The notes under the pieces: generated by a model
Told to the model about the DNA's origin: nothing
What the model saw: only the letters and a program-made list of their open reading frames with translations
Databases searched by the model: none
Part shown: one piece after another, positions 49,891-64,000 of the stretch
Layout of the letters: each line of letters starts with the position of its first letter
How positions within the stretch are numbered: position 1 is the stretch's first letter
Made by a program: the position numbers and the translations under genes
DNA from: Bacillus sp. REN16
GTDB taxonomy: Bacteria; Bacillota; Bacilli; Bacillales; Bacillaceae_L
Length of the DNA: 64,000 bases
Direction of reading: 5' to 3'
Assembly: GCF_020731355.1 (NCBI RefSeq)
Contig: NZ_JAJFZK010000004.1
Span: 248,001-312,000, forward strand

Positions 49891-50448
49891 TTAAATGTAA
49901 AGCTTTGGCACTGATTTTCCGGTACCAGTTGCTTTTGGTTTTTCCTTGCCATTTTCTAAATTTGCATCGTCTGAAGTGACGTCAGAAAGTGATATGGTTT
50001 CTTGATCTCCTTCTTCCTCTTCATTTCCCGCGTTTTTTATGGCACTGTACATTTTAATCATAGCTGGAATATTTTTCATTAATGGGCCATATTGCTGAAC
50101 CATTGGAACAACGGATTCTGCCATTTTTAAGGTTTTTTGTACATTTCCCATCATTGCACTTAGGTTCGAGGGATTTGCTAAATTTTGAAGGGTACCGGGA
50201 TTCATTCCTTGTGAAGCATTAAAGAAGCCGGGCATTCCACCCATTCCTTGCATCGGATTCCGCTGCCCCGCACCAGGGATTAATTTTTTTAAAAGACCGC
50301 CTAATCCAGATCTTCCTTGTCCTTGCATGCCTTGCATTCCGCCAAACATACCAGGTGGCCGGTAACCATATTGCTGCGAAAACATAGATGGTGGTCTCAT
50401 TTGTCTCATTGGTCTCATTTGGTTCATTGGTTGTCTTGGATAAAACAT
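49891..50448 (-). CDS. yqfQ: YqfQ/VrrA family protein
   Basis: The 185-residue protein has a Met/Pro/Gln/Gly-rich N-terminal half with short repeats (MRPMRQMRP, GGMQGMQGQG) and a more ordered region (about residues 85-145). A charged C-terminus with GNEEEEGDQE follows. VrrA of B. anthracis, with variable repeats, is a homologue. The gene lies between ispH and cshB as in B. subtilis. Function is unknown, though family members are linked to spores. The ATG at 50448 follows AGGAGGATAAGTAA. Confidence 0.82.
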   Translation of the reverse strand: MFYPRQPMNQMRPMRQMRPPSMFSQQYGYRPPGMFGGMQGMQGQGRSGLGGLLKKLIPGAGQRNPMQGMGGMPGFFNASQGMNPGTLQNLANPSNLSAMMGNVQKTLKMAESVVPMVQQYGPLMKNIPAMIKMYSAIKNAGNEEEEGDQETISLSDVTSDDANLENGKEKPKATGTGKSVPKLYI

Positions 50449-55167: not shown

Positions 55168-56010
55168 ATGCTCTCGGATATTTTTCAATATGAATTTTTA
55201 CAAAATGCATTCCTTAGTGGCTTGCTGATCGGATTGATTGCACCATTGCTGGGTGTTTTTATAGTTGTAAGACGACTGTCACTTATTGCTGATGCCTTAA
55301 GCCATGTGACCCTGGGAGGTATTGCGGCTAGTCTGTTACTTGAAAAGAAGCTTGGTTTAGCTGGGCCAATCAATCCAATATACATGGGAATGACTTTTTC
55401 CGTTATTGGTTCGCTTTTTATTGAACGCTTAAGAACGGTGTATAAGCATTATCAAGAGCTGGCAATCCCGATCATTTTATCGGGTGGAATAGGTTTAAGT
55501 GTGATTTTTATTTCCCTTGCTGATGGTTTTAATACCGATCTGTTTAATTATTTGTTCGGCAGTGTAAGTGCAATAAGTCGAGCTGATTTATGGACTGTCC
55601 TTGGGATTACGGTACTTGTTATTTTAATCGTCCTGATCCTATATAAGGAATTATTTCTTTTATCATTTGATGAAGAGCATGCAGCGGTTTCTGGGATCAA
55701 TGCAAAAACCATTCATTTCATTTTTATTGTCACAGTTGCATTAGTGATTGCTGCTTCAATGAGAATTGTCGGGATTTTATTAGTATCGTCTCTAATGACA
55801 TTACCAGTTGCAGCAGCGATTCGGATTGCAAAAGGCTTTAAGCAAACGATTATTCTTTCTGTTGTGTTTGGTGAATTAGCTGTCATTTTTGGGTTAGTGC
55901 TTTCTTATTACCTTGATTTGGCTCCCGGAGGAACGATCGTAGTATTATCCATTGTGATACTTTTAGGTGCAATAAGTTGGAAAAAATGGTGGAAAGGAAG
56001 AATAGCATGA
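55168..56010 (+). CDS. znuB: ZnuB-type zinc ABC transporter permease
   Basis: The 280-residue protein is an ABC-3 family permease with about eight membrane helices and the typical [17 protein letters not shown] segment near residue 37. It begins four bases after znuC (ribosome site GGAAGGTGAAACG) and overlaps zur by four bases (ATGA). With ZnuC it forms the metal importer; zinc is inferred from the Fur-family neighbour. Confidence 0.92.
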
Positions 56011-56420
56011 ATGTTTCTGAAGCGATTCAATTAATGAAGGAAAAAGGATTTAAACATACTGATAAAAGACAGGAAATGCTTGAATTATTTTCTGTTTCTG
56101 ATAAATACTTAACCGCAAAGGATGTTTTGGACGGATTAAAGACAAACTATCCTGGATTAAGCTTCGATACAATTTATCGTAATCTTTCTTTATTTGCGGA
56201 TCTTGGCATTTTGGAAACGACGGAACTTTCAGGTGAAAAACATTTCCGCTTTACTTGTGGCGGTACGCACCATCATCACCATTTTATTTGTCTGGAATGT
56301 GGAAAAACTAAGGAAATTGAATCCTGTCCAATGGATAAAATCGTCGACACTTTACCCGGTTATGATGTAACTGGTCATAAATTTGAAATTTATGGATCAT
56401 GTCCGGAATGCAGGATTTAG
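56007..56420 (+). CDS. zur: Zur, Fur-family zinc-uptake repressor
   Basis: The 137-residue regulator has an N-terminal winged helix (about residues 10-80) and a His-rich metal region (residues 88-92). The structural zinc site is C95-x2-C98 with C132-x2-C135. It is the last gene of znuC-znuB-zur and probably represses its own operon when zinc is ample. PerR and Fur are alternatives, but the operon and the position (yqfV in B. subtilis is zur) favour Zur. Confidence 0.92.
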
Positions 56421-56533
56421 GAACTCGGTTTTAAGTTTATTGGTTCCAAAGTAAATGATTAACAATCATAATTCCTGCTTTCCTAACTCATACTATAAAT
56501 GCTCCTTACCCATAAGGAAAGCGAGGGATAAGC

Positions 56534-61302: not shown

Positions 61303-61911
61303 ATGGCATACGAACTACCACAATTACCTTATGCTTATGATGCATTAGAACCACACATTGACAAAGAAACAATGAACATTCACCACACTAAGCACCACAA
61401 CACATATATTACAAACGTAAACAATGCGATTGCTGGCAAAGCTGATTTAGAAAGCAAATCAGTTGAAGAATTAGTGTCTAATCTTGATGCTGTTCCAGAA
61501 GATATTCGTACAGCAGTAAGAAACAATGGTGGTGGACATGCAAACCACAGCCTATTCTGGACAATTCTTTCTCCAAACGGTGGCGGTGAGCCAACTGGTG
61601 AATTAGCTGATGCAATCAACAGCAAATTCGGAAGTTTAGATGCATTCAAAGCCGAGTTTACAAAAGCAGCTACAACTCGTTTTGGTTCTGGTTGGGCTTG
61701 GTTAGTTGTTAACAACGGTGAGCTTGAAGTAACAAGCACTCCAAACCAAGACTCTCCATTAATGGAAGGCAAAACTCCAATTCTTGGTCTTGATGTTTGG
61801 GAGCATGCTTACTACCTAAACTATCAAAACCGTCGTCCTGATTACATTTCTGCATTCTTCAATGTAGTAAATTGGGAAGAAGTAGCAAACCGTTACAACG
61901 CTGCAAAATAA
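61303..61911 (+). CDS. sodA: SodA, manganese superoxide dismutase
   Basis: SodA converts superoxide to hydrogen peroxide and oxygen. The 202-residue protein has the metal ligands H27, H82, D164 and H168 (DVWEHAYYL) and the [11 protein letters not shown] signature. Residues near 149 (NQDSP) and GGG favour manganese over iron. The ATG at 61303 follows TTAGGAGGAATAAAC; the in-frame ATG at 61243 overlaps the palindrome and is rejected. Confidence 0.96.
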
Positions 61912-61938: not shown

Positions 61939-61967
61939 AACCAGTGGATTCTTCCACTGGTTTTTTT
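61939..61967 (+). terminator. Terminator after sodA
   Basis: AACCAGTGGA/TCCACTGGTT (10 bp, 4-base loop) is followed by TTTTT. Confidence 0.95.
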
Positions 61968-62017
61968 GTATGCATAGACTCAGAGCTGCTTTCTACTGAT
62001 CTTGATCTTATTATGTG

Positions 62018-62999
62018 CCGGAATCGTGCCCGATTGTCGAAGGGAAATCCCAAAAGGGTAACGCAAGGGCCGGAATCGTGCCCGATTGCCGAAGGGAAAT
62101 CCCCAAAGGGTAACGCAAGGGCCGGAATCGTGCCCGATTGCCGAAGGGAAATCCCCAAAGGGTAACGCAAGGGCCGGAATCGTGCCCGATTGTCGAAGGG
62201 AAATCCCAAAAGGGTAACGCAAGGGCCGGAATCGTGCCCGATTGCCGAAGGGAAATCCCCAAAGGGTAACGCAAGGGCCGGAATCGTGCCCGATTGCCGA
62301 AGGGAAATCCCCAAAGGGTAACGCAAGGGCCGGAATCGTGCCCGATTGTCGAAGGGAAATCCCCAAAGGGTAACGCAAGGGCCGGAATCGTGCCCGATTG
62401 CCGAAGGGAAATCCCCAAAGGGTAACGCAAGGGCCGGAATCGTGCCCGATTGTCGAAGGGAAATCCCAAAAGGGTAACGCAAGGGCCGGAATCGTGCCCG
62501 ATTGCCGAAGGGAAATCCCCAAAGGGTAACGCAAGGGCCGGAATCGTGCCCGATTGCCGAAGGGAAATCCCCAAAGGGTAACGCAAGGGCCGGAATCGTG
62601 CCCGATTGTCGAAGGGAAATCCCAAAAGGGTAACGCAAGGGCCGGAATCGTGCCCGATTGTCGAAGGTAAATCCCAAAAGGGTAACGTAAGTTCCGGAAT
62701 CGTGTCCGATTGTCAAAGGTAAATCCCCAAAGGGTAACGCAAGGGCCGGAATCGTGTCCGATTGTCAAAGGTAAATCCCAAAAGGGTAACGCAAGGGCCG
62801 GAATCGTGCCCGATTGTCGAAGGGAAATCCCAAAAGGGTAACGCAAGGGCCGGAATCGTGCCCGATTGCCGAAGAGAAATCCCCAAAGGGTAACGCAAAG
62901 GCCGGAATCGTGTCCGATTGTTGGAAAAGAAATCCCAAAAGGGAAACGCAAGGGCCGGAATCGTGCCCGATTGCCAAAAAGAAATAAAAAATGGTAACT
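62018..62999. repeat. GC-rich tandem array, 52-bp unit, about 18 full copies
   Basis: Units begin CCGGAATCG at 62018, 62070, 62122 and then every 52 bases up to 62902; the last, partial unit starts at 62955. The unit runs from CCGGAATCGTGCCCGATTG through GGGAAATCCC to GGGTAACGCAAGGG and is about 60% G+C in an AT-rich chromosome. Each unit can form the hairpin CGGAATCG-TGCC-CGATT(G)CCG. Units 1-12 are nearly identical; units 13-19 are increasingly changed. All three minus frames lack stops, so long frames there are by-products. Confidence 0.95.
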
Positions 63000-63185
63000 T
63001 TGTTTCCGCAAACCCAAGTTATCGGTATATCATCTTATCGCAAAACGATAAATGGTATACCGCAAACTCCATAGAGGTATATCATCGAGCCATAATTCAA
63101 ATAATGATATACAGCAAATGGGGTAAAGGGTATATCACTATGCAACTTTGGCTTTTCTTTGTATATCTCCATTTTTTTATCGCAC
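63000..63185. repeat. AT-rich degenerate continuation with the same period
   Basis: GTATATCATC at 63025, GTATATCATC at 63077 and GTATATCACT at 63130 are 52 and 53 bases apart. In the middle of the first two units AATGGTATACCGCAAA and AATGATATACAGCAAA are also about 51 bases apart. The region lies directly after the GC-rich array. Confidence 0.65.
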
Positions 63186-63220: not shown

Positions 63221-64000
63221 ATGTTTCGTTTTCAAAAGGTACTCGGTGATGTACCCATACACAGGGATTTAATTTTGTTACTGGTCATTGGTGGTTTATA
63301 TGCACTAAGTATCGCTTTATCAAACACATTTGTGAATGTGTACTTATGGAAGCAGTCAGGTGATTTTAAAGATCTAGGCTTATATAATTTAGCAGTCGTC
63401 GTTTTACAACCATTAACCTTTATCCTTGCGGGAAGATGGGCAAAAAAAATAGATAGAGTGATCGTACTACGGCTTGGAGTTTCATTCTTAGCCATTTTTT
63501 ATATCACCGTTTTATGGATAGGTGAAAGTGCTTCACACTATTTATTGCTTTTAGGAGCACTGCTTGGGATTGGCTATGGTTTTTACTGGCTAGCCTTTAA
63601 TGTCTTAACCTTTGAGATTACAGAGCCTGAAACACGTGATTTTTTCAACGGCTTTTTGGGGCTGCTTGGTTCCTTTGCGGGGATGCTAGGTCCAATTGCA
63701 GCGGGAATCATCATTTCTTCAATGGCGAGTTTTACCGGATACACCGTTATTTTCGGAATTTCTTTAGGGTTATTTATCGGTGCTGTTGTGCTTAGCTTTT
63801 TCTTAAAAAGGCGAAGTGCTGAAGGGGACTTTTTATTTAGGCGAATTCTTTCAGAACGAAAAAACAATTCAAATTGGAAGGGTATCCTCCATGCTCACTT
63901 TTTTCAAGGTATTCGTGAAGGGACCTTTGTATTTGTCATCTCGGTGTTTGTATTTGTTGCAACTGGCAGCGAGTTGGCCTTAGGGAAATTTGGTTTAATC
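63221..64000 (+). CDS. yqgE: YqgE-like MFS transporter (5' part; runs off window)
   Basis: 260 codons are visible without a stop. The protein starts MFRFQKVLGDVPIHRDL and has membrane helices at about residues 16-38, 50-70, 82-100, 105-130, 145-168 and 172-193. The typical MFS loop AGRWAKKIDR lies near residue 70. It belongs to the major facilitator superfamily; substrate is unknown. Its position after sodA fits B. subtilis yqgE. The ATG at 63221 follows AAAAGGGGAGTCAGCAA. Confidence 0.85.
   Translation, partial: MFRFQKVLGDVPIHRDLILLLVIGGLYALSIALSNTFVNVYLWKQSGDFKDLGLYNLAVVVLQPLTFILAGRWAKKIDRVIVLRLGVSFLAIFYITVLWIGESASHYLLLLGALLGIGYGFYWLAFNVLTFEITEPETRDFFNGFLGLLGSFAGMLGPIAAGIIISSMASFTGYTVIFGISLGLFIGAVVLSFFLKRRSAEGDFLFRRILSERKNNSNWKGILHAHFFQGIREGTFVFVISVFVFVATGSELALGKFGLI

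Follow-up and report, generated by a model that had tools for sequence, protein, structure and literature searches.

The window, by which we mean the whole 64,000-nt stretch of DNA that was analysed, ends with the superoxide dismutase gene sodA and a yqgE-like gene, and the spacer between these two genes is occupied by a large tandem array (Table 1). A TRF run over the window returned this single array, with a period of 52 bp, 18.4 copies, 95% matches and 0% indels, which bears out the original prediction of about 18 complete 52-bp units between sodA and yqgE. The conserved cores of the units are spaced by 52 bp starting from 62022, with a final step of 53 bp, and a decayed final unit carries the array, assigned to a family that we call F1, on to ∼62999. 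The 17 full units fall into 7 sequence types, two of which make up 12 of the 17. Identity at lag 52, computed over 156 bp, was up to 0.987 inside the array, while its maximum in the rest of the window was 0.417; a chance origin of the periodicity is thus excluded.

Table 1. Features of the sodA–yqgE region, with an example of the 20/40-bp arrays found elsewhere
Feature	Position	Strand	Basis
sodA, Fe/Mn superoxide dismutase (Sod_Fe_N and Sod_Fe_C); flank, outside the array	61303..61911	+	domain matches
Hairpin ACCAGTGGA-TTCT-TCCACTGGT with T-run, 3′ of sodA; kept in relatives without the array	61940..61967	+	sequence
Tandem array, family F1, 18.4 units of 52 bp, consensus GCCGGAATCGTGCCCGATTGTCGAAGGGAAATCCCCAAAGGGTAACGCAAGG	62017..62973	+	TRF; strand shown is leading, local GC skew +0.092
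Conserved core AATCGTGCCCGATT, first copy; inverted repeat AATCG-N4-CGATT; recurs each 52 bp up to 62959	62022..62035	+	core positions
Second conserved block AAAGGGTAACGCAAG, first copy; offset 31 bp from the core start in each unit	62053..62067	+	sequence
Degenerate units on the yqgE side; one 53-bp step; last unit fades into AT-rich DNA	62898..62999	+	sequence
Second short repeat of other sequence, arms GGTATATCA ... GATATAC/GGTATACC, with GCAAA; copies from 63024, 63076 and 63129 (steps 52 and 53 bp)	63024..63150	not assigned	sequence comparison; no TRF call
yqgE-like MFS gene (MFS_1); flank, extends past the window end	63221..64000	+	domain match
F3 class, 20/40-bp arrays, motif TTTGCGTC (GACGCAAA on the leading strand)	G000 C23, e.g. 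49940-50414, 55895-56427	motif TTTGCGTC lagging, 16/16	survey

Units were more uniform in the sodA half of the array (0.98) than in the other half (0.93), with the degenerate yqgE side at 0.78, in agreement with the earlier remark that near-identity was greatest toward sodA. The same source had described a ∼1-kb GC-rich block in AT-rich DNA; the block is GC-rich indeed, although the quoted G+C of about 60% was slightly high (56.2% in the array versus 37.8% in the remaining window). The flanks, a terminator-like hairpin with a T-run upstream and an MFS_1 gene downstream, were as predicted, and the units do contain the anticipated inverted repeat.

One could ask if an array of this kind is an artefact of draft assembly. 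The assembly consists of 73 contigs, and for an array of 1 kb its exact count of copies may be wrong; however, the array lies inside a 362-kb contig, has unique flanks and contains 7 unit variants, and related unit repeats were found in independent assemblies, one of them on a 4.55-Mb contig (G005), so that an artefact is extremely improbable. The array is authentic and previously uncatalogued; it is also ordinary for the class of 52-nt satellites discussed below.

Palindromic repeats and regular spacing are common to this array and to CRISPR loci; here, however, all 52 bp are repeated, spacers included, and arrays are many per genome. With no unique spacers present, CRISPR membership was rejected, as it had been in the original prediction. 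Polar growth of the CRISPR type was considered separately: the sodA array looks polar, yet of 26 arrays 13 had their more uniform side toward the origin and 12 toward the terminus, and this mechanism was rejected as well.

The short repeat situated between the array and yqgE has a relative in another species, where, at another locus (L127, 7525-7741), a related 53-bp array adjoins an F1 array. Since such an array lies beside an F1 array there as well, this repeat family and F1 co-occur. A 53-bp family, TGGATAAAATTAGGAAACTGCGAACCAGCAAAACCGCGAAAGAAGCCCGCATC, also adjoins F1 units in three species, with similar flanking genes (L128, L129 and L130).

We considered possible products of the array. 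A 345-aa ORF is open on the minus strand (61980-63017), its frame being a product of the repeat composition; in fact, the minus strand at this array is open in all frames because it is pyrimidine-rich. A coding role was rejected: consensus units of several other arrays have minus-strand stops, and Pfam gave only spurious repeat hits for the 345-aa ORF, none of them significant. ORFs like this one are likely to get annotated as hypothetical proteins.

A source of repeated RNA was one of the three roles suggested originally. The transcript (a sponge or a repeated small RNA) would be strongly expressed and hence kept co-directional with replication, like rRNA genes; the leading-strand orientation of F1 described below would fit, and 52-nt satellites of Bacillus coagulans were detected in RNA-seq (PMC8161180, PMC8625621). 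However, predicted folds of one- and two-unit stretches, on both strands, were no better than folds of shuffled sequences (z-scores from −0.7 to 1.0); no compensatory changes in the hairpins were seen across 21 diverged units; and at the array we found neither a promoter-like site nor a terminator beyond chance. The Rfam search produced no match to the array, only a sub-threshold snoRNA hit outside it, and with no curated family and no covarying helices membership in a class of structured RNAs was rejected. Moreover, the orientation of the arrays tracks replication, not neighbour genes. The suggested RNA role thus gained no support, and we consider a transcribed repeat RNA improbable.

Comparison with relatives, whose genus, judging from the sequences, is probably Ferdinandcohnia, showed that in seven other genomes of the genus the sodA–yqgE spacer is without the array but retains, in conserved form, the sodA terminator and the stretch preceding yqgE. 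In four of the seven (L137, L138, L139 and L140) the spacer is filled by other repeat elements. The array is therefore species-specific and resides in a tolerant spacer. The occupant in these four is a dispersed element of ∼110–180 bp (AGCTTTAGGCACCATCGG... and GACGTTTGCCACAGGACGTGG...), seen on contigs C34 and C23 too. At other loci, related species carry arrays in similar flanks, with copy numbers that differ.

A DNA search of the array's own genome revealed two more F1 arrays, more diverged. With a profile built from 21 core-to-core units we detected F1 units in seven of the nine genomes of the genus, as arrays at other loci; eight genomes from the rest of the family had none. Matching 52-bp units appeared, among 249 genomes of the order that were searched, in three further families. 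Exact double-core matches in GTDB contigs came only from Fredinandcohnia onubensis (two records) and Bacillus timonensis. According to the original prediction, a conserved function would be unlikely if relatives lacked both this array and any other array of the unit. The relatives lack the array at this site, yet arrays of the unit family are present elsewhere in their genomes, and so the idea survives.

What F1 units retain is two blocks, the core (89% identity between units) and the second block (80%); identity in the spacers is 42–43%. Steps of exactly 52 bp made up 94–98% of the total, with 74 of 79 core-to-core steps of this length. For a second 52-bp family, F2, 86% of the core steps were exactly 52 bp and 97% fell within 51–53 bp; over the two families, spacer identity between units was 39–43%. 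Within arrays, the diversity of block columns (0.18) was about half that of spacer columns (0.38). As the conserved blocks and the constant step persist while the spacers are near-random, both the blocks and the length appear to be under constraint.

An unbiased TRF survey of 742 kb of this genome showed 52-bp arrays of several sequence-distinct families along with many 20/40-bp arrays. The 52-bp arrays were intergenic relative to the called genes, the sole overlapping ORF (90 aa) being supplied by the array itself. One of them (G000 C23:153700-154448, 14 copies) has a unit that consists of a strong hairpin and a T-run, GGTCTTCATCACCCCGATGAAGACCTTTTT; in the lagging direction it resembles a terminator. 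Matches to the F2 profile were distributed over 53 of 396 genomes and 26 of 135 genera of the order.

The arrays are oriented with respect to replication. Orientation was scored against the local GC skew, used as a proxy, in 8–16 kb around a site with the array masked; the scored sites included arrays as well as single or partial unit matches, and belonged to three unrelated families (two of 52 bp and one, F3, of 20/40 bp). With F1, F2 and F3 pooled, orientation was fixed in 93 of 94 sites, which are partly non-independent, some loci being orthologous between species; we estimate the number of independent loci as at least 60. For F1, the strand shown here (GCCGGAATCGTGCCCGATTGTCGAAGGGAAATCCCCAAAGGGTAACGCAAGG) was leading in all 30 sites. 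The F2 sequence GGTCTTCAT...ATGAAGGAC was lagging in 47 of 48 sites, 20 of these in other genera, and at the single exception the local skew was −0.003, i.e. essentially zero. The F3 motif was lagging in 16 of 16 sites. On the long main contig of one genome (G335) the F2 strand flips somewhere from 2.28 to 2.40 Mb, which is what a terminus should produce. In 3-kb contexts, which are noisy and include some sites outside the genus, 13 of 16 agreed and three disagreed.

Direction of the flanking genes does not follow the same rule. The 5′ neighbour was co-oriented in 14 of 27 F1 sites and in eight of 16 F3 sites, and six sites hold their polarity against both neighbour genes; the direction of flanking genes thus does not explain the orientation, and transcription was rejected as its cause. 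As a control we took the dispersed intergenic repeat AGCTTTAGGCACCATCGG/GACGTTTGCCACAGGACGTGG on two contigs that it shares with the arrays: its orientations were split 11:6 (Fisher p 3e-5), and it is not oriented. Replication polarity, together with the conserved blocks and the fixed step, is an observed property of these arrays.

How does this bear on a purely neutral minisatellite, another of the originally suggested roles? An array produced by slippage or unequal recombination, with its orientation set only by strand-dependent sequence stability, would be expected to differ in copy number between species at orthologous loci, as is the case, and to settle in a tolerant spacer such as the sodA site with its other repeats in four relatives; besides, 30 of 31 arrays have a purine-rich leading strand. 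Neutrality is, however, hard to reconcile with blocks conserved across loci and genera and with an almost complete lack of length drift in units whose spacers are near-random. As to orientation, strand-dependent hairpin stability was rejected as its cause, because the energy of DNA hairpins favours neither strand consistently. Strict polarity adds to the poor fit, and we give neutrality little chance.

The remaining role in the original prediction, an array bound by protein in connection with the nucleoid, replication or segregation, fared better: of the three it was the DNA-level option that was best supported. In its functional version, a cellular DNA-binding protein or translocase would read helically phased sites along the path of replication or segregation, and selection would keep both orientation and step; 52 bp would correspond to five helical turns and 20–21 bp to two. 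Strict polarity, conserved blocks combined with free spacers and a fixed step, the palindromic core and the intergenic location all speak for such an array. At the same time, F1 arrays are missing from two of the nine genomes of the genus and their positions are not conserved, which implies that cells can do without them; the analysis yielded no candidate protein; and, given the different sequences of the families, a single sequence-specific protein could not recognise every one of them. We regard selection for a function of this kind as unlikely, though it deserves more credit than either the RNA or the neutral reading.

The explanation we put forward, tentatively and at slightly less than an even chance, is a non-coding 52-bp satellite that spreads and/or expands via the single-stranded lagging-strand template at replication forks. 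The units would be DNA elements, neither RNA nor protein genes, each a module fixed at 52 bp, or about five turns of the helix, that carries two conserved recognition blocks, of which one is a small inverted repeat; the length of the spacers would matter and their sequence would not. Arrays would enter, or survive in, intergenic regions in one orientation to the fork only; the F1 strand shown here, always leading, would also be the one that lies exposed as template for lagging-strand synthesis. Spread or expansion through the exposed template could proceed in the manner of IS200/IS605-type elements, with the blocks and the 52-bp step making up the recognised module. At sodA–yqgE, a unit would have arrived in this species only and grown to ∼18 copies in a spacer with a terminator on one side and a promoter on the other, a place where it would be harmless. 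Both the single-stranded template as the route and a protein that reads the blocks are parts of the mechanism that we infer.

Insertion of IS200/IS605 elements into the lagging-strand template is documented (PMC6006769). A Y1 transposase gene (PF01797) was present in 50 of the 53 F2-bearing genomes versus 242 of the 343 others (p 8e-5, with relatedness ignored). This association and the IS200/IS605 precedent argue for the lagging-strand template. On the other hand, none of the Y1/RAYT genes of the genus (20 loci) had units or a 52-bp array of any kind in its flanks, and one genome with large F2 arrays (G006) has no Y1 gene; both observations weaken the lagging-template explanation. Another genome (G007) has a Y1 gene and no F1 units. 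The lack of polar growth in the arrays, and of a consistent strand preference in hairpin energy, counts against the explanation too. Single-stranded insertion alone, furthermore, does not explain the 52-bp and 20-bp lengths that are common to three families of different sequence.

REP/BIME elements with their TnpA-REP (RAYT) proteins resemble the arrays in that they are short intergenic repeats with inverted arms forming tandem clusters, and an orientation bias would be expected from any single-stranded mechanism tied to the lagging strand. RAYT/REP membership was nevertheless rejected in view of the flanks of the 20 Y1 loci; the array-rich genome devoid of Y1 genes is a further difference. 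We know of no fixed 52-bp period in REP clusters. KOPS/SpoIIIE recognition sequences and Chi sites are replication-polar chromosomal motifs, as the arrays are; however, these are single motifs of 5–8 bp found chromosome-wide, unlike 52-bp tandem arrays present in a minority of species. MIRU/VNTR minisatellites are similar as intergenic tandem repeats of ∼50–100 bp with variable copy number; to our knowledge, neither replication polarity nor a unit length kept across genera has been described for them.

The closest known system is the set of non-coding tandem repeats of 52 nt and 20–21 nt described in Bacillus and other Firmicutes by Subirana and Messeguer, with constant length and several families per genome (PMC8161180). 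Like those satellites, which have periods of 51–53 bp (not a multiple of three) and at least four units, the sodA–yqgE array is 18.4 units of 52 bp. Further likenesses are short characteristic sequences common to arrays of one genome, often with their reverse in the unit; several families of the same length per genome together with a 20–21 bp class; non-coding, intergenic placement, as seen here in the 742 kb; and partial conservation with variable copy number between related genomes. Two sequences of the F1 unit, GAATCGTACCC and GGGTAAGCAA, are shared with Bacillus indicus family 7_52_18, and the F2 hairpin GTCCTTCAT/GTCGTTCAT is contained in B. coagulans 8_52_18 and B. litoralis 42_52_9 (all three in PMC8161180, Table 1).

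The published description differs from our results in two respects. (i) It claims no sequence conservation between groups, whereas we saw F2 in 26 of 135 genera and F1 both in the genus and in three other families. As F2 is present in 53 of 396 genomes and motifs are common to the B. indicus, B. coagulans and B. litoralis families, the statement needs correction; judged by these sequence matches, the cross-genus F1 and F2 families correct the published description and do not exclude membership in the class. (ii) PMC8161180 is silent on the leading strand, orientation and intergenic position, while the families studied here are strictly oriented. The replication polarity is thus absent from that description of 52-nt satellites; an earlier mention may exist in a J Bacteriol 2020 paper, which lies outside this comparison.

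Bacterial satellites with a constant 52-nt unit have remained a puzzle from the time of their cataloguing: their function was given as unknown (PMC8161180), and nucleoid binding or small RNA was proposed with no means of choosing. The strict orientation to the fork, which three families keep in many genera, narrows the possible answers to a process at the level of DNA, linked either to the fork or to segregation of the chromosome; the conserved cores provide bait sequences for direct tests. For specialists, the polarity and the cross-genus conservation of units should be of interest. It is possible, though we hold this with less assurance than the mechanism proposed above, that the 52-bp and 20-bp satellites of Bacillales form one functional class of replication-polar DNA, made up of modules of fixed length which spread through the lagging-strand template or act on it. 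If true, this would amount to a new type of satellite, either mobile or chromosome-organising, whose families are common to several genera.
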